Source: Cymbomonas tetramitiformis
Lineage: Eukaryota; Chlorophyta; Pyramimonadophyceae; Pyramimonadales; Pyramimonadaceae
DNA length: 64,000 bases
Direction of reading: 5' to 3'
Assembly: GCA_001247695.2 (NCBI GenBank)
Contig: LGRX02034765.1
Location: 1-64,000 of the forward strand
Part shown: positions 1,182 to 61,562 of the stretch, piece by piece
Numbering within the stretch: position 1 is the first letter of the stretch
Layout: each line of letters begins with the position of its first letter
Position numbers and translations under genes: made by a program
Notes under the pieces: model-generated
Database searches by the model: none
What the model was told of the DNA's origin: nothing
Seen by the model: only the letters and a program-made list of their open reading frames with translations

Positions 1182-1856
1182 TCATTGTTTTGTAGCAAAT
1201 GTTGAAGGTCGGAAGATTCTGATCTGAAGGTTGGAAGATTCTGGGTATGTGCAGGTTTGGTGGATCGATGACGTATTGTCCTTGGTAATGGCTCTATTCT
1301 TGAGCATCTTTGCGGTGTACACTTTAAATACATTAGCCGCACACGAGTGGTGGAAAATCGCATTCTGGATTGATCCATAGAATAGCATGTCCGCATCCGT
1401 TGCTCAACTTTTCATTCATATTATTTGCCCAAAACATGTATCTCTTTCCACGCACATCAACAATAAGAACTGTACTCCCGATATAGGCAAAGGTATAGAC
1501 TGTGTCTCGTTGAATGCTGATGTTGTGACACAGTTGCAATGCACTTTTGGTCGAGGGGTTCTGTGTTGAAGGCAAAGTGCATTGAAAGGTGATGTACCTC
1601 GAAGGCCATCTGATCGACGGGAAAGGGAAATATGTTCACCTTCCCCCGACCGGCATGCTAACAGCATATCACTCGTTTGACCAAACCGAGGAAATAGTGT
1701 TGTGAATTTTCGTTCTTGAAATTGAGGGTTAAATGCGCGAAGCACAGTAAATAGATAAACATACTGATGTACATATAGCAAACTATTCAAATAACTTGAT
1801 AACTTGAAAACAAAATATGAAAATCGTATCAAATTAAAAAAAAATCGCCATGACAC
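1182..1856 (-). pseudogene. decayed unrecognised coding region
   Basis: Protein-like segments occur in more than one minus-strand frame. One frame (1457-1639) reads VNIFPFPVDQMAFEVHHLSM; another (1333-1575) reads YIGSTVLIVDVRGKRYMFWA. They run in the same direction and nearly abut, as expected of a single gene broken by frameshifts. The hydrophobic and charged pattern looks coding, but I do not recognise the family. No single frame spans the region. Confidence 0.25.
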
Positions 1857-2099
1857 GTCTACAAAAGCCTTTTGTTAAAAATCTCCGAACTAAAATTCTT
1901 TATAAAAATTAAATATTTAAAGCTTTGCACCTTTTGAGCGAAGCATGGTGAATACAATGTTTGCTAACTCTTCTGGAGCTGCTTTTAAAAGAGAAATGCT
2001 AACAGAGTTCACTGCAGGCACTGCTACAGTTTCTGGCGTGACGGCCTGAGCCTCGGTCGTGGTAGCACGGGCTTGTGCCTCGGCACCAGGAACAAAATA

Positions 2100-2576
2100 T
2101 TATGCCTGCTGTCTCGGTGGAGTAACATTCATGACAGGTGTGGTCATGGTGACAGAAGACAGGATGTCCTCAACCCCGAATCCCGCACCGAGATTATACT
2201 GATAAGGGGCGTGTGTCGGCACTTCTTCAGTTGCCAACTCAGCAGTTTCACTAACATTCGCTGTGCCACTCGGTCCAGCTTCATCTGCATTCAGAGAAAC
2301 TCTCCCACGCTCTGTCATCACCTCTGCCTGCGTGTCAGAAAAATATCTACTATATTTAGGAACATTCTGCCGTGCGTCGTAAACTCGCCTAGTCTGCTCT
2401 TCTTCAGTGTCAGACACGTCAAATTCTTCATATGGCATTTGCCTGATCTGAGTGTCTGAGTTCACAATCTGGTTATTAAAATACCTGCACAGACAGTCGG
2501 ATTCAACAATGTTAAAATCCAACGATACAGATGCGAAACTCAAGATGTGAAGGCGCATAACAAGCCGGCCCATCAC
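2100..2576 (-). CDS. hypothetical acidic protein downstream of the Rep-like gene
   Basis: A 158-codon ORF rich in Glu, Asp, Thr and Ser, with a stretch around EEFDVSDTEEEQTRRVYDAR. It has no domain I recognise and no membrane segment. It lies about 90 bp downstream of the Rep-like ORF on the same strand and could be a second gene of the same unit or a downstream exon. The first codons may not be the true start. Confidence 0.35.
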   Translation of the reverse strand: MMGRLVMRLHILSFASVSLDFNIVESDCLCRYFNNQIVNSDTQIRQMPYEEFDVSDTEEEQTRRVYDARQNVPKYSRYFSDTQAEVMTERGRVSLNADEAGPSGTANVSETAELATEEVPTHAPYQYNLGAGFGVEDILSSVTMTTPVMNVTPPRQQA

Positions 2577-2666
2577 GTTCAGTATCTGGGCCGGTGAGGG
2601 ATATTCACTTGTGATGGGTGGGTGAGTCAGTATGTGAGGAATTCAAAATTCATGAATCTCTAGAAT

Positions 2667-3652
2667 TTAGAATGTATACCTGGATCGATCGAAGTAGCAG
2701 GTCGAACTAGGGAACAGGACGTTGGTGATGTCCGTGTTCACAGTTAACGCGGGCATGCTAACCATCTTCCACAGACTCTCACAGCGCTCCTCCGACAGTC
2801 CACGCCCGTCAGTGATGAGGTCGGTACAGATCACGTACTTGCCAGATCGTACCATGCGTTTCAAAGTAGACTTAAAGCTCGCGAACTTCCTCTTCATGCG
2901 GAAACGTCGGAAAAGATCTGCCTTCGCGAACAAATTGTACTTTGTCAACTCCATCCTTCCTTTCAGCTGAGAAGAACCGTAAAGAAGGTACGTGTCCAGT
3001 CCGGCCTTATTGTCTGCTTCGCTGACGTTCTTGTTCCGGATGATGGCGTCCTCCAGTCTCTGTACATTCTTATGGCAGTAGCCGATCATCCCGAAACGTG
3101 TGTGTACCTTATTTTTGTATGTAAGATATTTGACAACCAGATTCCAGTTCGACTGACGGTTGACATCTTCCCATCCGAGTGCAGACTTCAGGGCAGCGTG
3201 AATGGCGTCCGTCTTGATGTTCGTGCCGCCGCCAGTACACTGCGCGTGCCAGTGGCCTTCTTCATCCCCTTGCTCGTAGACACACGTCATGTAGTCCAAG
3301 ACCCCCTCCAGATAATCAGCTCCCTTGTGGAACTCGTCCTCAGGTAAATCTGTACCCAGTTTCGAAAACGTGATACTGAACTCGTGATAACAATCTGCAG
3401 CTGGTTGCTTTGATTTTGGTGCACGCTCGTGGTTTTGCTGCGGGTAGAAGTAGTTCCAGTGTAATTACGCTGCGCTGACTTCCGCGCTGCTGTTGTTCGT
3501 GCAGGTCGGGAAATAATGTCGAAATCAGAATCATCAGCACCCTCATCGTCGCTACTGTATACATCCAGGTGAGTTTCTTCCTCATCAGCGTCTTCATCTT
3601 CGCTGCTAAGTACGGGATTTGACTGCCGTACACATGTACGTTTCTGTCGCAT
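2667..3652 (-). pseudogene. HUH endonuclease (Rep-like) gene, frameshifted
   Basis: Three ordered motifs of rolling-circle Rep proteins are readable in one minus frame. Motif I-like HEFSITFSKLG is near 3370. The HUH motif HWHAQ (His-Trp-His) is near 3255. The Tyr motif GYCHKN (YxxK) is near 3080. Enzymes of this type nick DNA and stay covalently linked through that Tyr. An acidic N-terminal segment (about 3450-3652, rich in Asp/Glu, then Arg/Lys) is in another frame, so one frameshift or a missed intron lies near 3400-3480. No helicase domain follows the endonuclease; the C-terminal part (to 2667) is basic and unrecognised. The source could be an integrated single-stranded DNA virus, a polinton-like virus or an HUH transposon. 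The motifs are seen; the family assignment is inference. Confidence 0.55.
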
Positions 3653-8825: not shown

Positions 8826-10286
8826 TTAGGCTGATTCGGAGCCCATGGTGTCCCACTCGCTGTCGTCGGACATCACCGGTGGCGGCGTAGGGTTGTACTC
8901 CGGCATCAAGGTCACAGGCTCCTCGTCAGCTTCTTCCAGATTAGCGCAGACTCTTTCATCCTTGAGCTCTGTCTCATTTTCATTTCTCCAGAGCATCTCC
9001 GCTAGGTATTCACACACCGCTGCGATTGTTCCCACGGGTTGTTCCACCGGTAGAGAGCTGAATAATTGTTTAAGCAAGGCCGCGGGGATGCCATACACGT
9101 GCCATCCAGCTCCCATGCCTGGCCTAGGATCGCCCGACTCTCTGCTGGTGGAGCCGCTCTGCGCCATCTTCTCGTGTCGCCCATAGCGGCGTTTGAAGTC
9201 GCAGGGGTTTTCGGGGTCGCAAGACTTCAGGGTGGTGATAGGCGCGTTGGTCCAGAAGTGGGTGGGTTTCTTGTAGGGCATACCATACTTGCAATATGTA
9301 GCCAGATGCGGAGGTGGCAACCCTTGCATGCATCGGCGAGTGTGTAACCCATGAGGAGCTCGGCCACGCGGGTTCTCGATGAAGTAGAAGCTCGGCTGGA
9401 GGTACTTGATGATCTCCATGGATCTCCGCACTTGCCTGTCAGCACCACGCAAGTTTCGTATCCCTACCGTTTTGGCTTGGCTATACTCCGTGCATGGAGG
9501 GCTCGCCCAAATGACGTCAAAGTGCCTGGGCGAGAACTGCCGATAGTCCCAGTGCAGGATGTTTTCGCAGTGAGTGGGCTTCCATCGGTTCTGGATGTCC
9601 ACCGAGACCACCTCGCACCCTGGAAACTGCTTGCTGAACTGTCGTTCGACAGAGCCCGTGCCACAAAACAACACCAGGATCCGTATTGGGCGTCGAGACG
9701 GTTGTAGGTGTGCTGCTCCTCGACCAGGTCCTTGGGATGGCATGAAACTGGTGGGCGACACCGTCGCGAATGTGCCCACCTCGTCGTCGGCTCGTTCTTC
9801 CGGGATCCAGGCCATTCCGTCCGCCTGTAACTCTTCAGGATCCGTCAACCATATCGCTCCAGCTGTCTCCTCGCGTTTGCGAGTGACCCTGCTCTTTTCA
9901 CGTTCTTGCCTCTTGGCCTCGACCTTCTCGAACTCCTGCAGAGCGCGGTTAGGTATCCCTTTTCGGCCAACTCCATCGAACTCGAGGTCCTCGCGAGTTT
10001 TCCATTCATTCTCGAAGCGCGGCATACTGACCCACTTGACCATGCACTCCGTCCATGTCCGCCCGCTACGTCTCCTCCTATCCATTCTAAAATCACAACC
10101 AAAATCATGTTTGTCGGGGTTTTCTTTAACAATTCTTGGTTTAACATATATAAGTTCGCAAAGAATGTTTTGAGATTCCTCTTCATGCTTTTCTTTGAGT
10201 AAATTGCAAAATTTCAAATATTCATCACTTGATAATTTTGTTTTAAGTTCGTTAACAAGATTTTGGATATCATGTGAAGTAGTCAT
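8826..10286 (-). CDS. chromodomain-like plus cytosine-C5 DNA methyltransferase (retroelement-encoded)
   Basis: A 486-codon ORF. Residues about 75-105 (WTECMVKWVSMPRFENEWKT) resemble a chromodomain core, as found at the end of Ty3/gypsy integrases. Residues about 200-400 are a C5 methyltransferase: motif I LVLFCGTGSVERQF (SAM binding), motif IV ASPPCTEYS (catalytic Cys in PPC, with Thr where PCQ has Gln), motif VI FYFIENPRG (catalytic Glu), then a YCKYGMPYKKPTHFWTN block typical of phage and retroelement enzymes. The tail is acidic. The reaction would be transfer of methyl from SAM to cytosine C5. Position just before a polypurine tract and LTR marks it as the 3' gene of a retrotransposon whose gag-pol is missing here. 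Eukaryotic retrotransposons with captured C5 methyltransferases are known in algae. The catalytic motifs look intact; the N-terminus is probably fused to upstream pol in the full element. Confidence 0.85.
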   Translation of the reverse strand: MTTSHDIQNLVNELKTKLSSDEYLKFCNLLKEKHEEESQNILCELIYVKPRIVKENPDKHDFGCDFRMDRRRRSGRTWTECMVKWVSMPRFENEWKTREDLEFDGVGRKGIPNRALQEFEKVEAKRQEREKSRVTRKREETAGAIWLTDPEELQADGMAWIPEERADDEVGTFATVSPTSFMPSQGPGRGAAHLQPSRRPIRILVLFCGTGSVERQFSKQFPGCEVVSVDIQNRWKPTHCENILHWDYRQFSPRHFDVIWASPPCTEYSQAKTVGIRNLRGADRQVRRSMEIIKYLQPSFYFIENPRGRAPHGLHTRRCMQGLPPPHLATYCKYGMPYKKPTHFWTNAPITTLKSCDPENPCDFKRRYGRHEKMAQSGSTSRESGDPRPGMGAGWHVYGIPAALLKQLFSSLPVEQPVGTIAAVCEYLAEMLWRNENETELKDERVCANLEEADEEPVTLMPEYNPTPPPVMSDDSEWDTMGSESA

Positions 10287-10355: not shown

Positions 10356-11231
10356 TCATTTACTTATTTTTATAAAATTATTCTCGTCAACGTATAAACA
10401 ACCTAACGGCAATGTTGAAACATCAGTCGCAACTGGAAACTTATCAACTTGAAACTTAAATATAGTTTTATTCCTTTGTGTGTCTTCATCAGTCTCTAAA
10501 AAGAAAAAACTAAAACCCAAATTCCCATTTGGTAATGTGTTATTCATCGAATTGGCACCGATCACAGATGCAGAATCATCAGTTTTATATAATATAATAC
10601 CATTTGTTGATTTATTATTGACAGATGTAACCGATTGTAAATTTGGCGTTTGTACTGATGTGCCAAGATCAATCGCTTTGATAATATTATTATCCCAAAC
10701 TAAAACTTCTTGATTTGGAACAGATGCTATTGTGTCCGGTTTGGTCATTAGTTCCAATGCCGTTTCAGCTTGAATAGTAGTTGCTACTACGTTACGAGCT
10801 CCATTAATATCACCTGACATGTTGATTCTGAAAAACTTATTTGAAGACCTATCAGGTTTCTTTTCCATTTGTACTAGATATATAGTTTCAGCATTTTGGA
10901 TGTCAACGTCGGCGGTATTGACATCTATGTATGTTGAACCATTATATCTGTCTCCTCCCATTAGTAAAATGTCTTGAGAACCCAGTTTCGCAATTAGTCC
11001 CGTTTTACCATGCAACAGTGAAGGTCCGTCCTCAACTGTCAAATTATCGTTGATTGTTACAGTTTCAGCTATTAATTCATTCTTTACTATTACATTTTCA
11101 TTTGTTCTTTCAATGTCATTTGTCGTACCTGACACATTTGTCCATTTGCTCGATCCACCGTCTGGGGGGTTGCCATTAATCGTATCACATGTTAAATTCT
11201 TACAAACTAAACTTTGTCCAAAACTACTCAT
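10356..11231 (-). CDS. viral fibre/structural-like protein
   Basis: A 291-codon AT-rich ORF, clearly different in base composition from its neighbours. The N-terminus (LVCKNLTCDTINGNPPDGGS) matches the style of structural proteins of algal giant viruses and polinton-like viruses, where a short 'N.T..ingnPP.GG' leader precedes beta-rich repeats. The body is rich in Asn, Thr and Asp with beta-strand alternation and no transmembrane segment. It ends 10 bp from the next gene on the same strand. A second locus (about 40064-40190) keeps only its first 35 or so codons. Probably an integrated viral gene; exact function unknown. Confidence 0.6.
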   Translation of the reverse strand: MSSFGQSLVCKNLTCDTINGNPPDGGSSKWTNVSGTTNDIERTNENVIVKNELIAETVTINDNLTVEDGPSLLHGKTGLIAKLGSQDILLMGGDRYNGSTYIDVNTADVDIQNAETIYLVQMEKKPDRSSNKFFRINMSGDINGARNVVATTIQAETALELMTKPDTIASVPNQEVLVWDNNIIKAIDLGTSVQTPNLQSVTSVNNKSTNGIILYKTDDSASVIGANSMNNTLPNGNLGFSFFFLETDEDTQRNKTIFKFQVDKFPVATDVSTLPLGCLYVDENNFIKISK

Positions 11232-12051
11232 ATGTTTATACTATACTGATGTAAAATAATTGAATCCTGGGCTTACCCAAATCAATACACCGCCACCAGC
11301 ACCGGCAACTTTAGATTCCATAGCTGTTCCGATATATGAATCACCCGCTGTGATCTGAGCACTATTGATTTCCCCACCTATTATGCATTTCACACGTTTG
11401 CCCTTCACATACGTATTATCTGTAGCAGCGGGATTTCTACATGTGGTGAAACCGCGTCCGATCAACACGAAACAACTCTGAGATGCAGCACTGTCTTGAA
11501 TACAGACACCGATGGGTGTGCAGTTTTGGTTACTTTGAGTATACGAGTTATTGAATGGTTGAACTCCATTCACGGTGTTTATTCCATCATCATCAAACAT
11601 GACAATTGTTGAAGCAGTAATCGTATCGGCGGTGTTATTTACAAATGTAAACACATCCCCGGTGAATCTCAACGGGTTTGCTGGAAGGGTGGTATGAGCG
11701 TACGTTTTCGTAATGAGTGTCAAAGGTACGCCCGTTAGTGTGAGTGAGTTGGTTGAACTTGGATAAGCATAATTTAACGAGTTACTTAAAATAACAGATG
11801 CAGAATTTGATTCATCCAATTCCATGATCGAACCGGTATTTCCCACAGCCAAAACTTCACTCAATGAACCAATACTTCCATTGTTAACAGCTCCACTTCT
11901 AACTTCGTTTGATGCTGAATCGTAATACAATTGTAGACTTTCTGAACTTACATCAGGACTGACCCTGATAGGTCTGATATAACAACTATTTGCGACCCCG
12001 GCGTTCATATCAGCCCCGCTTGCGTTCAAAACGATCGTATTATCGGTGTTT
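11113..12051. repeat. recent segmental duplication, copy 1 (partner 40064-41009)
   Basis: About 935 bp match 40064-41009 in the same orientation with only scattered differences that I could see (a GGG/GGC codon change, a 3-bp insertion, a few substitutions near the 5' break). It spans the start of one fibre-like gene and most of its neighbour. Confidence 0.9.
11241..12051 (-). pseudogene. fibre-like protein, 5'-truncated copy 1
   Basis: Open from the break at about 12051 to the stop at 11241 (about 262 codons). Contains NSCYIRPIRVSPD followed by a small LYYDSASNEV block, a pairing typical of tail or head fibre collar regions in giant viruses and phages. The C-terminal domain carries a Cys-containing beta-rich region and ends in GGVLIWVSPGFNYFTSV. 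The N-terminal AIG-type repeats present in copy 2 (40196-41271) are absent: similarity stops at 12051, where unrelated sequence begins. Copy 1 has GF where copy 2 has AF and lacks a three-base insertion; otherwise they are nearly identical. Confidence 0.6.
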
Positions 12052-29414: not shown

Positions 29415-30410
29415 GCTAGTCTGATCGCACCCAATGTGATGCTCACCGCGGCGCACTGTTTTCCGAAGACGGTCGAGGGTTGGCCTTATTACAATCGAGC
29501 GGTATGTCGTGATACGTGCGCCTACGATGAGACGTACCGTGCTAACAACGGGCAGTGCGACGACACTCGAGGCACGAGCTACTGCAAGCTGAATGCGGAC
29601 TGCCAAGATTGCGGGACGTACGTCGCCAACTATAGCTGCACCACGGGATCCATAAATCGCGCATTATTGTTGAGTGTCACACGTCGCAATACCTCCAGCG
29701 CCGACACGTGCGCAGAAAGGATCCCATTGAAACGCGCATACGAGTATCCCGAATACGTGTCAGCGGAAAACGAGGCTGCCAACTTATATTTTTTACGACA
29801 CGATATTGCAATAATAACCCTGGGCGCCTACCCTCCAATATCGCTCTATAACGGAACCGCGGCTAACCTACTAAATGCGGACGTGATGGCGATCGGTTGG
29901 GGACGTACCGAGGCTACCGACCACGTAACGAACGAGCTGCGAAAAGTGCGTGGTAAGATCCAATGCGTTGGTACGACGTGTCACCCCACGTCCGCAAACT
30001 GCGTATACCTACGAGATTTTAACATAGACGACATGCTCTGCGTGCGATACGGTGAGTCGGACGAAGGTGGGGCGTGCAGCGGTGATTCTGGTGGACCGGT
30101 CGTGATGATCGATCCAAACATGGAGGCCGTGTTATCCTTGGTGGGTGTAGTCTCATTCATGACGGGTGATTGCGGCGCGTCTAATGCGCGGTATTTTGCC
30201 ATGAACCTGGCGAACGCGTCGATCACCGTCAATGGCTGCAGCAGTTCGTATGAACGCGTTCGCGTGTCCGATTACGGTCATTTCGACGACGGTGTGCATA
30301 ACTTTTTGACTACGTTGACTATGTCGCACGAATCAGTTTTTATGCATCATCGCTTTCGTGGTGATATTGCCGATATGTTTCGGCGAGTAGGGGTGGTAGT
30401 CGATGATTAG
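29415..30410 (+). pseudogene. serine protease (S1 family), 3' half with catalytic triad
   Basis: Continues the frame of 18104-18358. Catalytic His in NVMLTAAHC, Asp in LRHDIAIITLG, Ser in CSGDSGGPVV; all three are present. The residue six before the active Ser is Gly, pointing to chymotrypsin- or elastase-like rather than trypsin specificity. An insertion after the catalytic His holds a Cys-rich motif (CAYDETYRANNGQCDD then DCQDCG) resembling Notch-type LNR modules seen in algal proteins. There is a C-terminal extension of about 70 residues after the protease fold. Secreted or vacuolar location is expected but the signal peptide is not in view. The upstream GATTTGTAG just before the frame belongs to the transposon end, not to an intron. 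Confidence 0.85.
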
Positions 30411-31234: not shown

Positions 31235-31495
31235 ATATTCTAAGGCTCGGGGTTTATTCCGGATTAACTTTGGGCCGAAAACTAGATTAAAAATGATAGT
31301 GCCTACTTTCGAATTAAAAATGACACGTTACATGTCGTCCGCGTATGTCATATAGAGTACGCCCGCGCTGCCATATTGAGCGTCCACTTATGTCACATCG
31401 ATGCAAATTCGAATGTTGCGAGTGGAGTGAGCTGTCCGTTTTCGCGGTATGAATGAATACTCGAAAGGTTTGTGCTCACAAAGGTCTTATACTAA

Positions 31496-34169
31496 ATGGA
31501 AACAATGGCTACCGAAGGTGATATCGAATGGGCTAGTCCCGGTAATTTGAATAATATATATCACGACGATACCGAGGAGGAGGAGGAGGACGAGGAACAC
31601 GTGACTATGAAGAAACGTATTCGAAAGAACCTTATAGATGAGGAAAGTTGGGTATATATATATGCTAGTGTGACCTCGGAAGATCAGTGCCGTGACAAAA
31701 TAAGAGCCCTTTGCCCCGAGGGATTTTGCCGAGCCACCACACCCTATACTTCCAAAAAACATGGCGACATTACAACCACCTACCGTTGTTCTAAGAAACT
31801 CGCCCACCACTATGAACTCAGTTTCAAGATTAGAAGTAGGGTTTGCAGTGACGGCATCGAGAGGTTTTCCTTAAGTCAAAAGGGTGCACATACTCACGGG
31901 GAGTTCTATGGCAAGCAACTGGATCCTAAAGTTAAGGAAAAGGTGGTCAACCTCATCTTGGACCGTAAGCAACCGAGACAAATATGGGAAGCACTTCAAA
32001 AAGATCCTAAGATGCCGGCAACCAGCTACAAAACTGTCAAGGCGTTCGTGAAAAATCATCGTGGGGGACTATTAGCGGAGTTCGATATCAAAACCTACTC
32101 AGATCTAAAGGAGGTTGCCCTGAGCCACAATCTATTGTTTTTGCATCGTGCCGACGCTTCTACTAACGGCCATACCGCCGGCATCCTTGCGTTTTTCGAC
32201 AACGACATCCTTTCCGCCGACGGCTTCACCCGTTGTGATCGCTTTCCTGCGTCCACCACGTTGCCCCCTCTTCCACATGAAGCCGAGGGCTTGCTAGAGT
32301 TGCTTGGCAAATGGAAGAAGTCCAAATGGAATGAAACCGCTACCACTATGCAGCAGGCTCTCAACGAAAATATTCGGACTATCGGCAACAATGCTTCCGC
32401 CCCCTTTTTTCTTGACCTACTCAAGAATCTACTTGGGGCAAGTGGGTGGAATTTCAAGAAGAATGCTTTTCACACTCGTGAACTAAACGTGCAAGGTTTC
32501 TACAAGAGTTTCAAGTTACTCATCGAGGACTACGGCGCCCAAGTGAATAGGCGACGGTTCGTGGTGCTTTCTACAACGCTCGAGAAACTAAAGCTATTCG
32601 TAGATTTCAACATGTTGCAACGCGACGATGTCTACAAACTTCTTTGGAATCAATTTCCTGTGGAGACGGGCGGTACCTCCGAGAACCGTCGGTACTCTCT
32701 AGGTTACCTCGCCGTGAAGTCTCACGAAGATGCTATCGCCAGTGAGATCGTGAACACCCTACTCGTGCACGCTATCTATCACTTGGAGGACAAACTGTGG
32801 TGCCCACGCACCTTTGGTCTTGATCACTCCTTTGCCTTTTACAACGCGAACTTGACCTTCCCTGACGTCGTCAGCTGGATGTGCCACACCTTCCACATCC
32901 CCCCCCCACCCACACGTGGCGAGTTACATCGCTGGAGAGGTCAAACTTCTGCAAGCGATATGCTATGCGCATTGCCAACGCAAGGTCAACGAGAAAAAAC
33001 ACTTCTTTCTCACGGCCGAAAACTACCAGACCTTCAAGCGTGATGTCGGACTCCTTCGACGCATGTGGGACCCTACAGCAAAGCATGGAGAAGGGGACGC
33101 TCTGGCGGACGCCGCGCTACGCTTGCTGGTCACGAAGTTTGAGGGCAAGGATGAAACTTACATTAACGAGTGGTTCGAGAACTTTTGGTGTGGTAAGTGG
33201 GGCACTTGGCGCGACGGGTCACTCCCTGCGGGCAAGCCAACCCACAACAACGGTCCTGAGTGCTATCACAACCTCGCCCAAAAGTTCCTGGCAAAGAGAA
33301 CTTGCTTGCCGTTCGGACAGTTCGTGTCCGAGGCACTCGTATTTATGCATCGCGAAAGTGTGCGTGACTCGGAAAACCCCCTTCAAGTGTACGATGCCAT
33401 CGAGCTCCATACGTGGCGCAAGGGCTTGCTCCTACTTGAAAGTCATGCCCTAGAATACACTATGAAATCTACGGCCAACGATGGTCGTATCGTGTACGTT
33501 ATGCCCTCTGAGAAGACCTACAAGTCCCTTGAAGGCATGACTGCTGTGGACAAGAAGAGGGCGCTCGCGACTCAGGCTGCACTTTACATGTCCTTGGTTA
33601 AAACTCCTACTGAGCTACCTCCAACCATTTCTTCCTTCGATGATTTTCAGGAGGCATATTTCTCTTTCAGAATTCTAGAAGAACTCGTCGTTCCCAAGGA
33701 GGCCTACTACTACTACTCTTGCTCGTGCCATGAATATTTGGTGGCTAAAGTTTGTGAGCATACCTTGGCCTTCGGTGTTTACAAGGAGAAGTTCAAGGCG
33801 CCTATCGAGCGGAATCTGGACTTGATTGGAAGGCAGCCACAAATCGGTCGCCCCCCTAAGCCACGGCATGCGTTAGTGAGACAGCCAGGTCCTGATGAAA
33901 AGGTCTCCTTGACCAACAAGAGGAAGCTTGCAAAACGTGCAAAACAGGGAGGTGATGCGAGTAACTCGCCTGAGCTAGACTTGGCGTTTGGTTCTCAACA
34001 AGCGCCTCCAACCCTGAAGTGCCAGATCTGTAAGAAAACCAGTCGTGGTGACAAGATGCTTTTGTGCGATATATGTGACAAGGGCTTTCATATTTTCTGC
34101 CTGCAGCCTGAGTTGAAAGAAGTGCCAGTAAGCGATTGGTTTTGCTCTATTTGTATGTATGCTTCCTAG
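31496..34169 (+). CDS. MULE transposase with SWIM and PHD fingers, one frameshift
   Basis: Two overlapping frames form one gene: 31496 to about 32905, then the next frame to 34169. The switch falls in a run of nine C (32899-32907), typical of slippage, so this copy is either mutated or mis-sequenced there. The N-terminus has an acidic lead and a FLYWCH/WRKY-like zinc-binding region ending KGAHTHGEF. The core has the MULE-type ICYAHCQRKVNEK block and a PTHNNGPECYHNLAQKFL block. A SWIM finger (CSCHEYLVAKVCEH, CxC...CxH) is near 33720-33765. A C-terminal PHD finger (CQICKKTSRGDKMLLCDICD...HIFCLQPE...WFCSIC) follows at about 34020-34155. The PHD finger would read histone tails and could steer insertion; that is inference. 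Apart from the frame break it looks intact. Confidence 0.85.
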
Positions 34170-34754
34170 ACACATACTGAACACTGTGATCTAGTAGCAA
34201 GCTTCCTCGAGAAATACTAAACCTTGCACTCCAGTAGCACGTTTCTACAACTACTATATTGATTGTATTTTACAACAACTCTATTTGCAGTGATATGATC
34301 GTATTTTGTGTCCTTGTGCCTATATGTATGCATACCATATATACAAAAGCATGCAATATCACATACAAAGCATACTGAACCTACGTGCAGACTCATCACA
34401 TATTTCTTGATATACATATCCTCGCCTTGTAGGAGTGCATAACATGTATTCCGGCGTGTGGTCGACACGTTGATGTATATTACTATATGATAAGATCAAC
34501 GTCTCGACCATACGTCTTGAATTGGTACTCGTACGCGTACTGTACCTGCCATACATTAATACCTCTAGGTGTGTACAGAGCGTGGTGGTCTTAGAAATAT
34601 TCGAAATATATGTATGTAGCTTCGTTCGAAAGTGAGCGCTCTAAACGTTCCGAGCGTGCAGAAATATTTTCAGCAGTGGTATTCAAGTTTATTTATGTTC
34701 TTATATTATGTCCTATGACTTGGTATGAGAGACAGTTGAGTTTCACTTTGTGCC
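34170..34754. other. spacer inside the Mutator-like element
   Basis: AT-rich with no ORF of note. It separates two plus-strand genes and should hold the terminator of the transposase and the promoter of the next gene; no specific site is recognised. Confidence 0.4.
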
Positions 34755-37169
34755 ATGCATTCAAAAGATATTGAGAAGCCATCAAAAGCCATCAGGCCTC
34801 GGAGTGATGTTCTACGTGCCTTACTGACAAGAATGCTACAAGTTGAGAGGCAAAATATTAGATGGCAAGTGAATGGCGCAAGGCCAGGATGGTTTCCAGA
34901 ACATGTGCCGTGGGACCTATCAATATTTAAAGCTCTTCCTACAAAAGGTCTAAAGGTAGACGACATAGAGTTCGTTGTAAGAGAGCTTGCAGTAGAGCGG
35001 GCGCTTGCAAGGCCCTTTAGCGATCCTTGCTTCGATTGTTTTCGCCGCGACCTTCCTTTGGACGCTACAGCTAGGAGTGGATTTATCGCTTGGCTCCAAG
35101 GCTTCTTGCCTGACGCCTTTGCTGAGCACATTCCGAAAGCTGCGCCCATTCCCCAAAAGATCACAGAGTCAGCGGCAGTTGATTTTCTTAGAAAACTTCT
35201 ATCAGCACCGTGCAATGCGCCTGCAGTTGAAGAGTTTTTCGAAACAGGACAACCTCCAGCACAGTTCCAGCAGCTTCAGAATCCAGCTCAGATTCCAGAG
35301 AACGTACGCAAGGATATGGAAGCACAGCAGAGATATATTGCAGAGTTACAGGGAGAAGTTGAAAAAAGAAGAAACGATATTCAGAAACTAGAGCAAGAAA
35401 CAGTGCAGCAGTTTGCAGACTCAGACTCAGACAACACCGAAGAGTTTGTAGGTGTTGAGATGGAATACGATGAGAATAGAGGGGTGTGGGTTCACGATGA
35501 TGGAGAAGACGACGCAAGTTCGCAGCAGACGGTGGGCACAAGCAATCAGACGCCTGATAGACCGACAGTATTTGGCAGCCAGCGTGCTTTTGGAGAGTTG
35601 GAACAAAACTTGCCCCAGCATCGTATTCGACTAAGGCCAACTAGTTACAGACCGGCAACCATACGCAGAGTGCCTCCGCGAAAAAAACCACGTTCAGACA
35701 TTCCAAGGAGCGTGAACTACAACTGGTTCAATCTCACGTACGCACTCGCCCCTAGAAACAAGAACACCGCTTTTTACCCAACCCATACTTGGCAATACGC
35801 TGCTTTGAGGTGCATTCTAGGGGAGGTTTTTAAAGGGGAAGTCATATGCGATTACTTGTGCGGCATAGACTCAAGGGTTGAGCTAGAATTCGCGAAGTTT
35901 GCACCACGACGCATAGTGTTGCGAGATGAAGCGCACGAGGATAGTAGCCGCCGGCTTGACGTTTTGCATGCGCACGTATTTCCTATGGCCGAGGGGAGTA
36001 TTTGTGTGTCTTCTCTACCTTACACGAACACCGCCGCATTTCTAGAGCGGCTTCTTTTTTGTGGCGTTAAGGTAGTGATCGTGAAACTCCTCGACTCATA
36101 CAAGCGAGTCGCAAATAGCGACTGCCGGCAAGCATTGGAAGAGTATTTGGTGCTTCGCATTTCTTTAGGCCCTGCTGCTTACCCTCCATACGAGAGCACG
36201 TTTGGGCAGCCCGAATCTTGGTTTATTTACGTCCCACCAACGCCGGACGCGGACACCGTAAAGCATCAAGTCTACAAGTCGTGCAATGAGTTTCTAGAGA
36301 GGTGTAGAGGCACACCGCAAGATGCGGAAAGAAAACATTTTCACTTGCTTCAAGTAGAAAGAAGTTTGGACGTGTTTGTGCATGTTTACCCGACACAGAA
36401 CCTCATAACTTGGGACACTCGTGAGCGGAAAATAATTAGCCGAAAGTAACTCTTTATTTATTGGACATGTTTCCTTGTTGCCTTGCCTTGTTGCTTTTGC
36501 AGGGTGATGAAGCTTTTGAAAGGTGTAGAGGAATTCCTCTACACCGTGGAGGATAGTCAGTGCACGAGGTGGCGGGATCCTACCACAGCTAAGTGTACCT
36601 GGAGGTGGCAAAGGAGCACCGGGAGGACCTGCAATGCCTTCGGTGCAGGTCTTGGGATGTTTGACACACCACACAACTTTCTAAGGGGGAAGGGTGTTTG
36701 CATGACACCCGTTTGTGATCGGAAAAGTATCCGACCGTGGTTACTGCAGGTGTACACTATGTTACACCCCGTGATGCAAATTGTAGACCCGGTTTTTGCC
36801 GAAGGGGAGCACTACTGCCTGCAGGTTGCTCGGACCGACGATCCCAATGCACACGTTGTGCGTAGGCACAAGGAAACCAAAGACATAACCCACCAATACT
36901 TGTGTGCACTTGGCAATTTTTCTGGGGCCACACTCAGGCAGCACAGTGAGGGGGGTGGGAAGCACTTTGACATGAACACGCAATGCCGCATAGTCCGTAT
37001 GGACGGGAGGATAGATCACGAGGTGGTATTCCAAAACTTCAAGGGGGTTCGTTTTGGTTTAGTGTTCTACAAAAGTTTTGACCCAAAGATCCAAGCACCG
37101 ACTCCGAAGCTACACCGGCCGAGGTATGTGTGGCCAGTAGAGGAGGAGGTGGCTTCAGATGAGGACTAG
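34755..37169 (+). CDS. methyltransferase-like / TET-JBP-like 2OG dioxygenase fusion
   Basis: Two ORFs (34755-36449 and 36483-37169) join in frame across a short intron at 36446-36502 (57 bp, AAA|GTAACT...TTTTGCAG|G), giving about 785 residues. N-terminal 190 residues unknown, then a coiled coil, then an acidic linker. Residues about 330-540 resemble a class I DNA methyltransferase: ALRCILGEVFKGEVICDYLC (motif I region), then VSSLPYTNTAAFLERLL where an (N/S)PPY catalytic motif belongs, but the first Pro is Leu. The C-terminal 220 residues resemble transposon-linked TET/JBP dioxygenases: RRHKETKDIT (an HxE where HxD is usual), LCALGNFSGATL, then RMDGRIDHEV and KGVRFGLVFYKSFD, supplying the second His and the 2-oxoglutarate Arg. 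Such enzymes oxidise 5-methylcytosine or thymine using Fe(II) and 2-oxoglutarate. Domain calls are by motif; the fusion rests on the intron, which has good splice sites and preserves the frame. Confidence 0.65.
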
Positions 37170-37254
37170 GTAGCTAAGAATCTTGTACAGAACTAACCCT
37201 AATATGTAAATACCCATACGCGTATCATAGCATGCATACCTGAAATATATGTTC

Positions 37255-37986
37255 TTAGTCCAGGAAGTGAAGGGAACTTCTTTCCATAGCTTGCCCTTTC
37301 ATATACGCAAGATAGTCGAGGTACTCGGTGCGCCAGTGAACTGTTCCGTCTGTTGTAGTTGTGTCCCAAACACACCTCCTGTAGCCAGGGTTATCGGTGC
37401 TCACGATATGGGTGCAACACGTCGAGCATAAAAAAAGTGTAGGCACTCCTTTCATAGCGACGTGCACGTCGGCACCTCGTTTGCAAAAGTGCATAGCCTT
37501 GTTACGGTCCACGAGGAGCTTAGATAGACAACAAGTAACCCGAATAAGGTCTTGAATATTATTGTATCGGGCGACTTGCTCACGGAAGAGTGTCTGGAAT
37601 AAAGGATAGTCTTGTGGTGCGATCACCCCCAAGTAGGCATAATCGGGCTCGTAACCCGAAAGAAAGTGACGTTGACACGAGCGGTTGGGGAATACGCCCA
37701 CGTTCGGCGTAAGACCTCCAGCTTTGTTCGCGTATTCCGCCCCAGGCGTATACTCAATGAAGACGTATTCGCCGTCAAAGTTTTCCACGGGACCACCGTG
37801 GGCTCTAACCTCGTCGCGAAACTCGTGCCGACACTTGGAAACACTATTTGGAGTTATGATCTTACTTTCTTTTGGCGACGGATAAAAGTCTGTAAGCTTC
37901 CCTTGGTTATACGCGGGCGTTCCATTGGTTATACGAAGGCGGAGAGACCTTCGGGGAATGCACGCTCGTTTGGGATTTCTAGGCAT
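37255..37986 (-). CDS. PIP-box protein of the Mutator-like element
   Basis: A 243-residue product starting at the ATG at 37986 (MPRNPKRACIPRRSLRLRIT); the frame stays open further up but those residues look like 5' leader. Residues about 28-35 read QGKLTDFY, an excellent match to the PCNA-interacting PIP box (QxxLxxFY), embedded in a basic, disordered N-terminus. The rest has Cys pairs (VTCCLSK, LFLCSTCC) and Trp/Tyr-rich segments with no domain I recognise. It is convergent with the fusion gene, whose stop is 86 bp away. Docking on PCNA would tie the element to replication forks or repair; that role is inferred from the motif alone. Confidence 0.6.
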   Translation of the reverse strand: MPRNPKRACIPRRSLRLRITNGTPAYNQGKLTDFYPSPKESKIITPNSVSKCRHEFRDEVRAHGGPVENFDGEYVFIEYTPGAEYANKAGGLTPNVGVFPNRSCQRHFLSGYEPDYAYLGVIAPQDYPLFQTLFREQVARYNNIQDLIRVTCCLSKLLVDRNKAMHFCKRGADVHVAMKGVPTLFLCSTCCTHIVSTDNPGYRRCVWDTTTTDGTVHWRTEYLDYLAYMKGQAMERSSLHFLD

Positions 37987-38320
37987 AATTTGAGACGAAT
38001 GAATATATATATGTATGTGAATGGAAATACGAAAGAGCAAAAGAGAGCAAGAGAGCGAGAGAATGTCCGGCGAAATGCTTCGGTTCGTTTAAATGGTCGG
38101 CATTTTGGTGGTGATGACAATCGAGCGGGAAGACATGCGACTGCGACATGACACACCCAAACTTAATCTAGAATAAGGCACTGTCATTCTTAATCTAGTT
38201 TTGGGCCCAAAGTTAATCTAGAAATAACCTTTTGCCATATTCTAAGGGCAAGGACGATATATACGCACTTGTAGGCGAAAAACATCAAAATATTGCTTAA
38301 GTGTGGCAAAACATTGAAAA

Positions 38321-40063: not shown

Positions 40064-41009
40064 ATGTCATTTATTTGTCGTACCTGACACATTTGTCCAT
40101 TTGCTCGATCCACCGTCTGGGGGGTTGCCATTAATCGTATCACATGTTAAATTCTTACAAACTAAACTTTGTCCAAAACTACTCATATGTTTATACTATA
40201 CTGATGTAAAATAATTGAATCCTGGGCTTACCCAAATCAATACACCGCCACCAGCACCGGCAACTTTAGATTCCATAGCTGTTCCGATATATGAATCACC
40301 CGCTGTGATCTGAGCACTATTGATTTCCCCACCTATTATGCATTTCACACGTTGGCCCTTCACATACGTATTATCTGTAGCAGCGGCATTTCTACATGTG
40401 GTGAAACCGCGTCCGATCAACACGAAACAACTCTGAGATGCAGCACTGTCTTGAATACAGACACCGATGGGTGTGCAGTTTTGGTTACTTTGAGTATACG
40501 AGTTAATATTGAATGGTTGAACTCCATTCACGGTGTTTATTCCATCATCATCAAACATGACAATTGTTGAAGCAGTAATCGTATCGGCGGTGTTATTTAC
40601 AAATGTAAACACATCCCCGGTGAATCTCAACGGGTTTGCTGGAAGGGTGGTATGAGCGTACGTTTTCGTAATGAGTGTCAAAGGTACGCCCGTTAGTGTG
40701 AGTGAGTTGGTTGAACTTGGATAAGCATAATTTAACGAGTTACTTAAAATAACAGATGCAGAATTTGATTCATCCAATTCCATGATCGAACCGGTATTTC
40801 CCACAGCCAAAACTTCACTCAATGAACCAATACTTCCATTGTTAACAGCTCCACTTCTAACTTCGTTTGATGCTGAATCGTAATACAATTGTAGACTTTC
40901 TGAACTTACATCAGGACTGACCCTGATAGGTCTGATATAACAACTATTTGCGACCCTGGCGTTCAATTCAGCCCCGCTTGCGTTCAAAACGATCGTATTA
41001 TCGGTGTTT
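40064..41009. repeat. segmental duplication, copy 2 (partner 11113-12051)
   Basis: Near-identical, same orientation as copy 1. Outside both ends the two loci are unrelated. This copy keeps more of the fibre-like gene upstream (to 41271) but loses the neighbouring gene after its first 35 or so codons. Confidence 0.9.
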
Positions 41010-41271
41010 ACCGCTCTCTGAGCAGAGTTTTGTCCTGCGAGAGCCCCAATATTGATTGCATTTTCGCCGCATGAAAACTCACCACAGTATTTCCCGATAT
41101 TCACTGCGGCATCTTTGCAGTTAACTTGAGAGCTGTCGTCCCCGATTGCCACAACAAATGAACCACAATTATTGTTGGCCGCCCCCGAGCCGATGGCAAT
41201 CGTATCATTAGAAGTTGTATTGTTTAAAGATAAGGCATTTCGGCCGATCGCTATAGAACGGTCTCAACACG
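40196..41271 (-). pseudogene. fibre-like protein with AIG repeats, copy 2
   Basis: Open in one frame from a break at about 41271 to the stop at 40196. The N-terminal part consists of SIAIGRNALSLNNTT, DTIAIGSGAANNNCGSFVVA, IGDDSSQVNCKDAAVNIGK and INIGALAGQNSAQRA units. These AIG.xAg repeats form trimeric beta-prism fibres in giant viruses, phages and adhesins. They are followed by NTIVLNASG and NSCYIRPIRV and the same C-terminal domain as copy 1. No start codon with a natural leader is present and sequence before 41271 is unrelated, so the gene is truncated. Likely derived from an algal virus. Confidence 0.65.
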
Positions 41272-57959: not shown

Positions 57960-60900
57960 CGAGCCAGTACTTGCAGCACCTATAGAAGCTGAGACAGGAC
58001 AAAGCAAAGATGGGTATAGCTGTTTCAGGAAGGAGGCACCAGCTGCTACGGCGACACCTGGTGATGAGCGGAGCAGCGGCACGGACGGCAAGGTCAAGCA
58101 GCACGGAGGCGAGACCAAGGAGGCCAAGCCGGATGAGGAGGACGCAGAGGTACCGCAATGGATCCTGGACGAACTGGTGAAGCTGAAGCAGCGGTACCAG
58201 GACGTGGTGGGAATGGAACTACCCAAGGGCGTGGTTGATCGAGAGCACAAATCGCCGCTAGTACTGGATCTTGAGTACAAGGAGGGGGCTCGGCATAAGC
58301 GATGCTACAAATTATCCATGGAGGAAATGAAGCAGCTGCGTGCACAGCTAGACGAGCTTCTGGCAAAAGGGTACATCCGCCCTTCTTCCTCGCCATGGGG
58401 CAGCCCGGTGTTGATGGTACCCAAACCTTCTAACCCGAAGGAACTGAGGCTGGTGATTGACTATAGGCAGATCAATGAGATCACCGTAAAGGACCGTTAC
58501 CCCTTACCGGACGTGCAAGCTCTTATTGATGACATGCAAGGATCAACCATCTTTTCTACCGCTGACGCACTGTGGGGGTTTTGGCAAGTCCCTATGGAGG
58601 AAGAAGCAGTGGAGAAGACCGCCATGACCACGCCGTTTGGAGCATATGAGTGGTTGGTCATGCCAATGGGGCTGTCCAACAGTCCTTCGTGTTGGCAGCG
58701 GATGATGCAGAAGTACTTGGGCCACCTACCGTTCGTCAGAGTTTTGTGGATGCCATTATGATCTTCTCGCGCAACCCCGAGGAGCACCTGGACCACCTGC
58801 GGCAGGTTTTGGAGGTATGTCGACAGAATAAAGTCAAGTTGAAGGAGTCCAAGCTGCGATGCTTTAAACGCTCAGTACGATTCCTGGGACATGTCATTGA
58901 CCGCACTGGCTGCCGACCACAGCAGGACAAGATAGCATCCATACGGGACTGGCCGCGACTGGAAACGGTGAAGCACGTGCGGCAGTTCTTGGGTTTAGCT
59001 GGGTTTTATCGACGGTACATACAGGGTTTCGCTGACTTGGCGCACCCCCTGATCAAGCTAACCAAGAACCTAGTGCCATGGGAATGGGGGCCGGAGCAGG
59101 AACACGCTTTTACACGCCTCAAGACCGCCCTCACCACTGCACCGACCTTGATCTTGCCCGATCAGGAAGCAGCTCATCGCGGCACCAGCCCCTTTGTTGT
59201 GCAGACCGATGCGAGCGCAGTAGCATTAGCTGGCGTGCTGATGCAGGATCTAGGCAAGGGCCTGCAGCCCATAGCCTTCGAGAGCAAGCAATTCTCTTCA
59301 GCCGAGCAGAACTACCACGCGGGTGAGCGAGAGCTGGCCGCGATTCACCACTGCACCACACAGACGTGGAGGCATTACCTAATCTTCACGGAGTTTAGGC
59401 TGATGGGGGACCATGCTCCACTGAAGTGGCTGTTTGCACCTGGACGTGAGCTCAGCCGACGACAGGCCAGGTGGTATGAAGATCTGGTGGAAGTAGGAGT
59501 GCATGCAATGGAGCACGTGCCAGGACGCACACTGGTGGTACCGGACGCTGCCTCACGGCGACCGGACTATGTGCAGGCGACGGCGCGAGAAGGGCTTAAG
59601 GAAGCAGGGTATGTGGACCCGAGCACCGACCAGCCAGTATCTGCAGAGGAGGGCAGAAGAGCAGCGGGAGCTAAAGGGAAACCAGAGGAAGAAGGGAACG
59701 TGATGGCTGGCCTGAAGAAGGTTGTAGAGGAGGAGGATCCCACTTCACCTTTGGACTTGGAGCTCAGCTCGTCGGATGAGGAGGAAGATGAGTACCCACC
59801 GGTCAGTGTGCCCAAAGTAAGCGGTAAGCTAACTCAGCTGAACGGTCTCTGGTGGGCAGAAACACCGGACTTATGGCTGGACGCTATGGTCACAGTGGAA
59901 AGGATGGCTGCGCTACCAGCAATGGCGGGAGTCCAGACACGAGCTCAGAATGAGCAGCAGCCAGCAGAGAAGCAGCAGCCAGCAGCGGAGCAGCAGCAGT
60001 CCACGCCAAGGATGCAACCTGGGGAACCCCTGGTAGACAATCAGGACTGGAAGCTAATTCCGTCCGAGTTCCGTCGACTACAAGCCAAGTACGCGCGAGT
60101 GTTGGGCGGCCGGGTCCAGGTGGACGCATGCTGCGATCTCATGGGGCAGAACCGGCAGGTGGACACTTTCTGGACAGACTGCCTAAAAGAACAGTGGAGG
60201 GGTCATGTGGTGTGGTGTAACCCACCCTTCTCGGATTCCAAGGTGAGTATTGCAGACATCCTAAGGCACTACGCTTCAGAGGCCCGGCACGCCCCCCAGA
60301 GCACAGCCGCGCTGTTCCTGCTGCCTGACTTTCCGCAGGCTGACTGGCGGCCCTTGCTGCGAAAATATGGGATGGAGATCGTGGAGACCATACCTCGCGT
60401 GAACGAGCAAGGTGAGCCCAACCGAATGTTCATCTCTCCTGGTGAAGAGAGGGGGCACCGCACAGCCTTACAGGAGTTGCCCATCCCATGGCCCGTCTTG
60501 GTGGTATTGGCCAAACCACGGCGTAAGCACTTCGACGAGATCACAGCTCCGAGAGAAAGACCTTCAGCATCACCAGCAGTGACTCTCAAGGGAGCCGCAG
60601 CAAAGATCAGGGACCAGGCAGGTGTGGTGGAACCGGGAATGTTTCTGCGTGCCTTACGGGCAGAACACAGGCGCGGTGATTACCTATCAGCCCTGAAGCA
60701 GGAATTACTGGCCACACAGCACCACCGCACCGAGCATTTTCGGCTGGTAAGTTACATCATCTGGAGAGTGGCGGAAGGACGCTATCAGGTGGTGTTAGCT
60801 CCCGACTCCCCTCTGAGAGAGCTGGTCTTGAGGGCAGCTCACGAAGCCCCTGCAGCAGGTCATACAGGGAGGGACAAAACCTTGGACAGAGTCAGACGGC

Positions 60901-61562
60901 GATTCTGGTGGCCGCGAATGGACCTGGACGTAGCTGAATGGGTGAAGACTTGCGTAACCTGTCAGCAAACCCAGCCGCGCCAAGGATACCCAGCAGGCTT
61001 GTTGCAGCCCCACACTGTGCCCAACCGGTTGTGGGAAGTGGTAAGCATAGACTTCGTCACTGGTCTCCCCACGACAGAGAGGGGTGTGAATGCCTTCGCC
61101 ACATTTACATGCGTAAACTGAGTAAGATGGTGCACGTGGTCCCAATGACGTATAACGATAGTTCAGCAGAGGTGGTGACCAGGTTGTTCATGGATGTAGT
61201 GTGGCGACTGCACGGGGCCCCGATGAAGATTGTGTGCGACCGGGATCCGCGCTTTCGAGATGCCCTGACACAGGAGTTCATGCGATTGATGGGCGTAAAG
61301 GTAGCCAGCACCACTCCCTATCACCCGCAGAGTGATGGCCAGGCTGAGCGTAGTAACCACACCGTGGAGCGCATGCAAGAACCAGGAGGACTGGGACCTG
61401 TGGGTGGCTCCAGTGGAGTACGCCATCAATGACTCCAAGTCAGCAGTAACAGGGTTCTCACCATTCGAGCTGGTGTACCGACACGCGCCAGCAACCCAGC
61501 TGGATCTCTTCATGGACGCGGCACTGGAGGGAGGCGCAAAGAGGAGAAAGGATAAAGCCTAA
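57856..61562 (+). pseudogene. Ty3/gypsy pol with an embedded DNA adenine-type methyltransferase domain, frameshifted
   Basis: Frame 1 (57856 to about 58735) carries reverse transcriptase: LAKGYIRPSSSPWGSPVLMV, LRLVIDYRQINEITVKDRYP, MPMGLSNSPSCWQRMM. A shift at about 58735 leads to FVDAIMIFSRN, where the YxDD box should be: the second Asp is Ala. RNase H follows (VVQTDASAVALAGVLM), then a Glu/Gln-rich linker. Next is an inserted domain at about 60040-60510 with VDACCD and WRGHVVWCNPPFSD, the NPPF catalytic motif of N6-adenine-type methyltransferases. Integrase follows: an HHCC finger (AGHTGRDK ... CVTCQQTQP), D1 in VVSIDFVTGLP, D2 in IVCDRDPRF, E3 in PQSDGQAERSNHTVE. Two more shifts lie near 61105 and 61378. 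No aspartic protease DTG/DSG motif was seen. The element is dead as written. Confidence 0.85.

Follow-up and report, generated by a model that had tools for sequence, protein, structure and literature searches.

DNA transposons of fungi that encode TET/JBP proteins were reportedly described by Iyer in 2014. In the accessible part of a later account, TET-bearing transposons are published for fungi only, in ten lineages of which none is Mutator/MuDR; they pair a transposase with a TET/JBP gene, occur in many copies with mostly open frames, are proposed to act against silencing and have no PIP-box partner (Kojima 2025, PMC12730594). Here we analyse a stretch of 64,000 nucleotides from the green alga Cymbomonas tetramitiformis (contig LGRX02034765.1, positions 1 to 64,000; hereafter the window), which carries a Mutator-like element (MULE) resembling the fungal transposons in its pairing of genes, its many copies, its mostly open frames and its presumed anti-silencing role, and differing from them in host, in superfamily and in an additional gene for a presumed PCNA-binding (PIP-box) protein. 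Our results support the view that the cargo of this element is conserved and comprises a TET/JBP-type dioxygenase and a PIP-box protein.

To our knowledge, the VANC proteins of VANDAL elements are not dioxygenases. VANDAL elements, which are found in plants, resemble the present one in that they are MULEs with an extra gene countering epigenetic silencing, whereas VANC proteins are described, in the accessible text of two papers, as sequence-specific anti-silencing proteins (PMC10398659, PMC12730594). The SET-domain MULEs of Phytophthora and the Rehavkus elements with a PHD finger likewise join a Mutator-type transposase to chromatin-related domains, Rehavkus with 9-bp duplications, but no TET/JBP or PIP-box gene is given for them in the accessible part of a Mutator survey, whose table names SET, PHD, SWIM and other domains and no TET (PMC6446971). 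A sequence-only reading of the window, made before the present analysis, knew of no described Mutator-type element with such a cargo; the open-access literature, a scope that leaves aside subscription papers and Repbase, yielded no Mutator element with a TET/JBP gene, nor any Polinton-like element with TET and dioxygenase.

Structure and ends of the element

Features of the locus, in window coordinates:
31235-31243, no strand: target site duplication, left copy, ATATTCTAA; 9- or 10-bp duplications in other copies
31244-31360, plus strand: region of the left terminal inverted repeat, of which about 117 bp are common to non-autonomous copies
31496-33043, plus strand: transposase, first frame; N-terminal C..C..HxH stretch at 31781-31903, putative D1 at 32627-32659, putative D2 at 32816-32848
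32916-34169, plus strand: transposase, second frame; CxxH at 32961-32972, putative catalytic E at 33246-33260, SWIM pattern at 33720-33761, PHD finger at 34020-34154
34755-36445, plus strand: exon 1 of the dioxygenase gene, with a conserved stretch at the N-terminus and a conserved domain of no recognised fold, DYLCG at 35850-35864, SSLPY at 36009-36023
36446-36502, plus strand: presumed intron of 57 bp, GT...AG, frame kept if spliced (from sequence only)
36503-37169, plus strand: exon 2, TET/JBP-type dioxygenase; HKE at 36867-36875, distal H in DHEV at 37014-37025, R in GVR at 37044-37052
37255-37986, minus strand: PIP-box protein of 243 amino acids; QGKLTDFY at 37882-37905, CxxC towards the C-terminus
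38126-38236, minus strand: region of the right terminal inverted repeat, of which about 94-111 bp are common to most non-autonomous copies
38237-38245, no strand: target site duplication, right copy, ATATTCTAA; 9- or 10-bp duplications in other copies

The sequence-only reading had bounded the unit by an 11-bp direct repeat and by inverted repeats of about 100 bp. Since the termini shared by the 14 copies compared (start GGCTCGGGG, end CTTTTGCC) fix its ends, the element spans 31244-38236 (6,993 bp) and its target site duplication is ATATTCTAA; the direct repeat is real, but it is 9 bp long, the adjoining GG match being due to chance. The inverted repeats hold up in alignment, with 67-nt arms (31251-31317 and 38163-38229) that are 81% complementary, and ends of about 100 bp are common to the non-autonomous copies. 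Duplications were looked for in 20 copies, namely the window and 19 of 20 fetched loci (L030 was excluded, its left end lying outside the match), and a right terminus could be recognised in 15 of them and was not found in L022, L023, L028, L039 and L040. A scripted test, confined to 9 bp, returned perfect duplications in 11 of these 15 copies, and the flanking sequence gave perfect 10-bp duplications in four (L021, L031, L032 and L035), L031 and L032 being counted as one insertion because of their common flanks. Duplications of 9-10 bp fall within the range of MULEs, stated as 8-11 bp in the accessible part of the survey (PMC6446971), and the terminal inverted repeats are long.

The transposase frame of the window copy is broken near a C homopolymer (about 32899-32908) and open over 889 amino acids in L027, L028 and L029, so that the window copy would need an intact sister copy in order to move. 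The transposase had been read as a SWIM+PHD protein, of which the PHD finger is recognised by Pfam (PF00628, E 6.4e-12), but the SWIM part is a CxCx7CxH pattern seen by eye, kept in the relative P0004, on which Pfam is silent. Residues D377, D442, C488xxH491 and E587 of the L027 transposase, placed by eye, are identical in P0004 (54% identity), and their order matches what we take to be the Mutator transposase pattern. Because Pfam gave no match to a SWIM domain in the transposase or, even at E 10, to a MULE domain, membership of the Mutator superfamily rests on the ends, the duplications and the motifs. The closest annotated relative is CYMTET_55594 of the same species (52-54% identity), and scans of viral contigs, run with the second frame and with an alignment, recovered no relative of the transposase.

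Copies of the element and conservation of its gene set

The genome of the alga (851.7 Mb in 25,745 contigs, the window lying on contig C24640) gave at least 42 matches to the left end (40 of 202 candidates scored), and 20 loci were fetched. In seven of these (L021 and L025-L030) the transposase, both exons and the PIP gene are present at 98.3-99.6% identity; L030 contains a 1.07-kb insert, and the stretch fetched for it stops within the PIP gene, and L028 is without the right end, its 98.3% identity taking in sequence past the break. Among the window copy and these seven, the TET exon is open in all eight, exon 1 in six, the PIP gene (241-243 amino acids) in five and the transposase in the three already named.

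Copies with the same ends and no cargo, which the sequence-only reading had named as evidence that would refute it, do occur, since 13 of the 20 fetched copies are short or broken and lack the cargo set. In the stretches fetched for these 13 there is no intact transposase, which gives them the look of non-autonomous or broken derivatives. L024 and L031-L037 are elements of 0.7-2.4 kb with both ends, with transposase residues (the first 115) in L024 only; L038 retains about half of the transposase; L022 and L023 are cut short, the latter after 557 transposase residues and with 664 unread bases; L039 has the right end region in part only, and L040 has none. A copy on contig C5130, 98% identical over transposase residues 30-811 but for one stop, is without a TET match among the matches listed. 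The non-autonomous elements L031-L037 have in common internal direct repeats with a period of about 180 bp and inverted repeats of about 330 bp.

The evidence for a conserved gene set comes from more distant relatives. Searched against its own genome, the TET exon gave at least 151 matches (720 candidates, 150 scored), some of them pieces of one copy, and the identities among the matches listed form bands of roughly 96-100, 66-82, 40-46 and 32-38%. In the locus L041 (contig C588) all four genes recur, arranged and oriented as in the window element, with identities of 51-57% for the transposase, 50% for exon 1, 82% for the TET exon and 51% for the PIP protein; the right end of L041 matches that of the window element (28 bp, 86%, E 9e-5), and its left inverted end was not found. 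Across all four genes the proportion of nonsynonymous differences (pN) is 0.12-0.32 and that of synonymous differences (pS) 0.74-0.79, the latter near-saturated; all four are under purifying selection. That a distant sister element has retained the complete set suggests that the kit is part of the way in which the element lives.

A diverged relic of the same clade on contig C24715 points the same way, with nonsynonymous divergence (dN) of 0.12 for TET and 0.22 for exon 1 against saturated synonymous divergence (dS) and a dN/dS of 0.19 for the PIP gene, +1-frame controls giving ratios above 1. On this contig (L018, L036) a non-autonomous copy has inserted into the relic, with a 9-bp duplication, and separates its TET part from its PIP part. 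Relative to the window element, loci L044 and L045 have identities of 45 and 40% for TET, 32 and 24% for PIP and 28 and 32% for the first 110 or so residues of exon 1, the second domain of which was not recognised in either. The order of genes is kept in both, L044 having the exon 1 start, TET and PIP and L045 in addition the end of a transposase before them.

Linkage was also surveyed from the transposase side, with 49 transposase loci listed (51 of 3,257 candidates scored; four pieces of the same loci dropped from 53 entries) and 44 of the 151 TET matches. The 107 TET matches set aside were second pieces, shorter pieces of 66-96% on other contigs and matches of 46% or less; by eye, they occur on contigs with a transposase locus only as second pieces of loci already counted. 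Among the loci listed, a TET match lies within 10 kb downstream on the same strand in 10 of 15 loci of the 94-100% transposase family, 12 of 19 of the 52-57% family and 3 of 3 of the 37-38% family; within the 52-57% family, 4 of the 12 loci with a TET match have it more than 6 kb off (6.5, 7.0, 8.1 and 9.0 kb), beyond the spacing of an intact unit. At L048, the frame downstream of a 35% transposase relative (1484-2731, plus strand) shows by eye an HxD...H...R-like pattern with no library support and is possibly a different dioxygenase cargo; two CxxC proteins at 129-710 and 2915-3457, both on the minus strand, appear related by eye.

The dioxygenase gene

The stretch 34755-37169 had been taken for a single coding stretch; the gene region stands, but it consists of two frames around the presumed intron. 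The identification of exon 2 as a TET/JBP-like dioxygenase is upheld by its similarity to NgTet1 of Naegleria (PDB 4lt5), with an alignment score of 64 which none of 2,000 shuffles reached (mean 28.6, standard deviation 4.4, maximum 52) and which fell to 27 for the reversed protein; for the relatives P0001, P0003 and L041 none of 500 shuffles reached the score. The aligned core reads RR-HKETKDITHQYLCALGNF in the window protein and RKPHKDNLDITPSSLFYFGNF in NgTet1, the common pattern being HK(D/E)..DIT...GNF ... H/HEV ... G.R.GLV, with 31% identity over 72 columns. Putative ligands of iron and 2-oxoglutarate (2OG), namely H, E/D, H and R, are invariant or conservatively replaced in all six aligned sequences. 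The first iron motif is HxE in the window family and in L044, where NgTet1 has HxD, as do L045 and two distant relatives, L042 and L043. The Pfam model Tet_JBP (PF12851) found nothing at E 10 in the four members tried and nothing genome-wide, 14 control genomes being likewise silent, and viral contig scans with the TET exon or its alignment gave no relatives. Taken together, the support for a TET/JBP-like exon 2 is good but not final.

Exon 1 had been described as methyltransferase-like, a proposal which we abandon. As a methyltransferase dependent on S-adenosylmethionine it has no credible match in Pfam, NCBIfam or PDB, and the catalytic motif (N/D)PP(Y/F/W) is absent, with SSLPY in its place, which makes it at most a loose look-alike. 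It shows no similarity to a Dam-like domain encoded elsewhere in the window (935 of 1,000 shuffles reach the score). Its N-terminal part is conserved and its second domain strongly so in L041; a single-sequence model (predicted local distance difference test, pLDDT, 37) gave no usable fold, and viral contig scans showed no relatives of exon 1.

The PIP-box protein

PIP boxes follow the pattern Qxx(I/L/M/V)xx(F/Y)(F/Y). The motif claimed for the fourth gene is there, and the pattern is kept with changed letters (QGKLTDFY, QRKVSDFY, QPKVTTYY) in all three sequences with a readable N-terminus, those of the window, L041 and C24715; the N-terminus is unreadable in L044 and L045. Because the pattern persists with different letters in two diverged relatives, it is better supported than it would be by one match. 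A search for homologous proteins with the PIP protein returned nothing at E 0.001.

Possible function of the cargo

We lean, by a little, towards the view that the window holds a member of a MULE family which encodes, besides a SWIM+PHD transposase, a TET/JBP-type dioxygenase extended at its N-terminus and, in divergent orientation, a PIP-box protein, and that this cargo lifts silencing by the host. The transposase would cut and paste the element, of which near-identical copies with 9-10-bp duplications are an indirect sign, and its PHD finger probably steers it to a histone mark. The dioxygenase would most likely act on the DNA of the element or its surroundings, oxidising a modified base (by analogy 5-methylcytosine) and thereby lifting silencing; we infer such a role from the precedent of the fungal transposons (PMC12730594) and from the class of enzyme. 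The PIP-box protein would most likely dock on PCNA and so bring the module to newly copied DNA as marks are re-set, a coupling to replication suggested by the PIP box by itself. It is tempting to go further and imagine a replication-coupled anti-silencing machine, in which the PIP-box protein on the sliding clamp would hand newly replicated, half-modified DNA to the TET-type enzyme, so that new copies would emerge without the silencing mark, and in which transposons and viruses of the alga would trade the enzyme; we hold this extended picture to be rather improbable.

Several observations weigh against silencing relief by a TET-type enzyme. There is no CpG decay, the observed/expected ratio of CpG being 1.00 in the window and 0.95 in the element, and transitions among copies affect 11 of 742 CpG sites and 55 of 2,596 sites elsewhere (P 0.37). 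These statistics lend no support to heavy CpG methylation here, nor to the suggestion of the sequence-only reading that the cargo edits DNA modification during or after replication; the enzyme may therefore act on a different mark or sequence context, or the mark may be kept off. Similarity to NgTet1 fades among the relatives, with shuffles reaching the score in 295 of 500 trials for L044, 148 for L045, 61 for P0002, 39 for L043 and 2 for L042, the first four thus not exceeding chance on their own, and hhalign comparison with NgTet1 gave P 0.0016 and a probability of 16% with four sequences, P 0.012 and 4% with nine. No Pfam, NCBIfam or PHROG model recognises exon 2, nor does any model recognise the dioxygenase relatives in L042-L045; an AlphaFold model of exon 2 from four sequences (pLDDT 30) has no usable fold, and HxE for HxD could mean weak or altered catalysis. 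Among the 99% copies pN/pS ranges from 0.30 (TET) to 0.89, on few differences and hence noisily. Finally, no listed TET match lies downstream in 5 of 15 and 7 of 19 loci of the two closest transposase families and in all 12 loci of the 35-37% family, and the 4-4.5 kb downstream of three of these 12 hold no TET.

DNA hypermodification is carried out by CMD1 of Chlamydomonas and by JBP of kinetoplastids. Hypermodification by such dioxygenases is also stated in the accessible text of PMC12730594, and the window enzyme might accordingly be no eraser and instead hypermodify the DNA of the element as a shield, a strategy that would be common to virus-like loci with a methylase and a TET relative; we take this possibility seriously and consider it unlikely. 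It draws on the distant 32-38% band of TET matches, in which two were opened. In L042 the TET relative (35%, 1957-2955) adjoins a C5 DNA methylase (PF00145, E 2e-8), and with an A32-type ATPase-like frame recognised by eye and a frame matching DUF5906 below cut-off (E 7e-5) the locus looks viral. In L043 the TET relative (33%, 1424-2419) is near an N6_N4 methylase (PF01555, E 3e-27). Both, like L045, have HxD where the window family has HxE, and in an unrooted tree of ten sequences L042 and L043 stand apart from the rest with support 100, a split compatible with one exchange in either direction. On the other hand, the element has no recognisable methylase or glycosyltransferase, just two of many matches in the band were opened, the viral nature of L042 is a judgement by eye, and the L042 protein, run against viral contigs, gave no match.

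The conserved PIP-box pattern, the HxE motif and the well-conserved exon 1 domain of no recognised fold in L041 would also suit a scheme in which the product of exons 1 and 2 takes part, with the PIP protein, directly in transposition, through repair of the donor site, replication timing or choice of targets by PCNA, the dioxygenase working on protein or RNA or being a catalytically dead binder. Conservation of the putative iron and 2OG ligands in all six aligned sequences speaks against this scheme, which we regard as distinctly improbable. That the extra genes were simply captured and amplified with no use to the element would agree with the tendency of Mutator elements to pick up host gene fragments (stated in the accessible part of PMC6446971), with the 13 cargo-less copies and with the transposase loci lacking a listed TET, but it is hardly credible given the order and orientation of four genes kept in L041 at about half identity, the recognisable cargo pieces likewise kept in L044 and L045, a TET exon more conserved in L041 than the transposase and a strong excess of synonymous change, the selection test strongly disfavouring it.

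A conserved pair of dioxygenase and clamp-docking protein in a non-fungal Mutator lineage would show that base oxidation has been recruited again by mobile elements, and would extend this enzyme family past the reach of Pfam. The alga moreover offers a natural experiment in one genome, where full copies that are almost identical can be set beside copies that share their ends but lack the cargo, and beside more distant relatives that neighbour DNA methylases; base modification in all of these can be read directly from long reads.

Neighbouring sequences in the window

Other frames of the window lie on both sides of the insertion. A C5 cytosine DNA methylase at 8829-10286 (minus strand; PF00145, E 6e-6) resembles by eye that of L042, and adjoining it, at 10356-12029, are frames that look by eye like virus structural proteins, 10359-11231 being without a Pfam match. 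The translations of 11241-12029 and of 40196-41152 (minus strand), about 29 kb apart, are near-identical by eye. The Dam-like N6-adenine methylase domain mentioned above (PF05869, E 1.6e-4, below cut-off) belongs to a Gypsy-type pol at 58650-61118 (plus strand), where it is placed between RNase H and the integrase zinc finger. A frame at 2670-3299 (minus strand) shows similarity to a Replitron-type HUH endonuclease (PF21859, E 7e-5, below cut-off). Upstream of the insertion, at 29436-30407 (plus strand), lies a frame for a trypsin-like protease (PF00089, E 3.5e-14).

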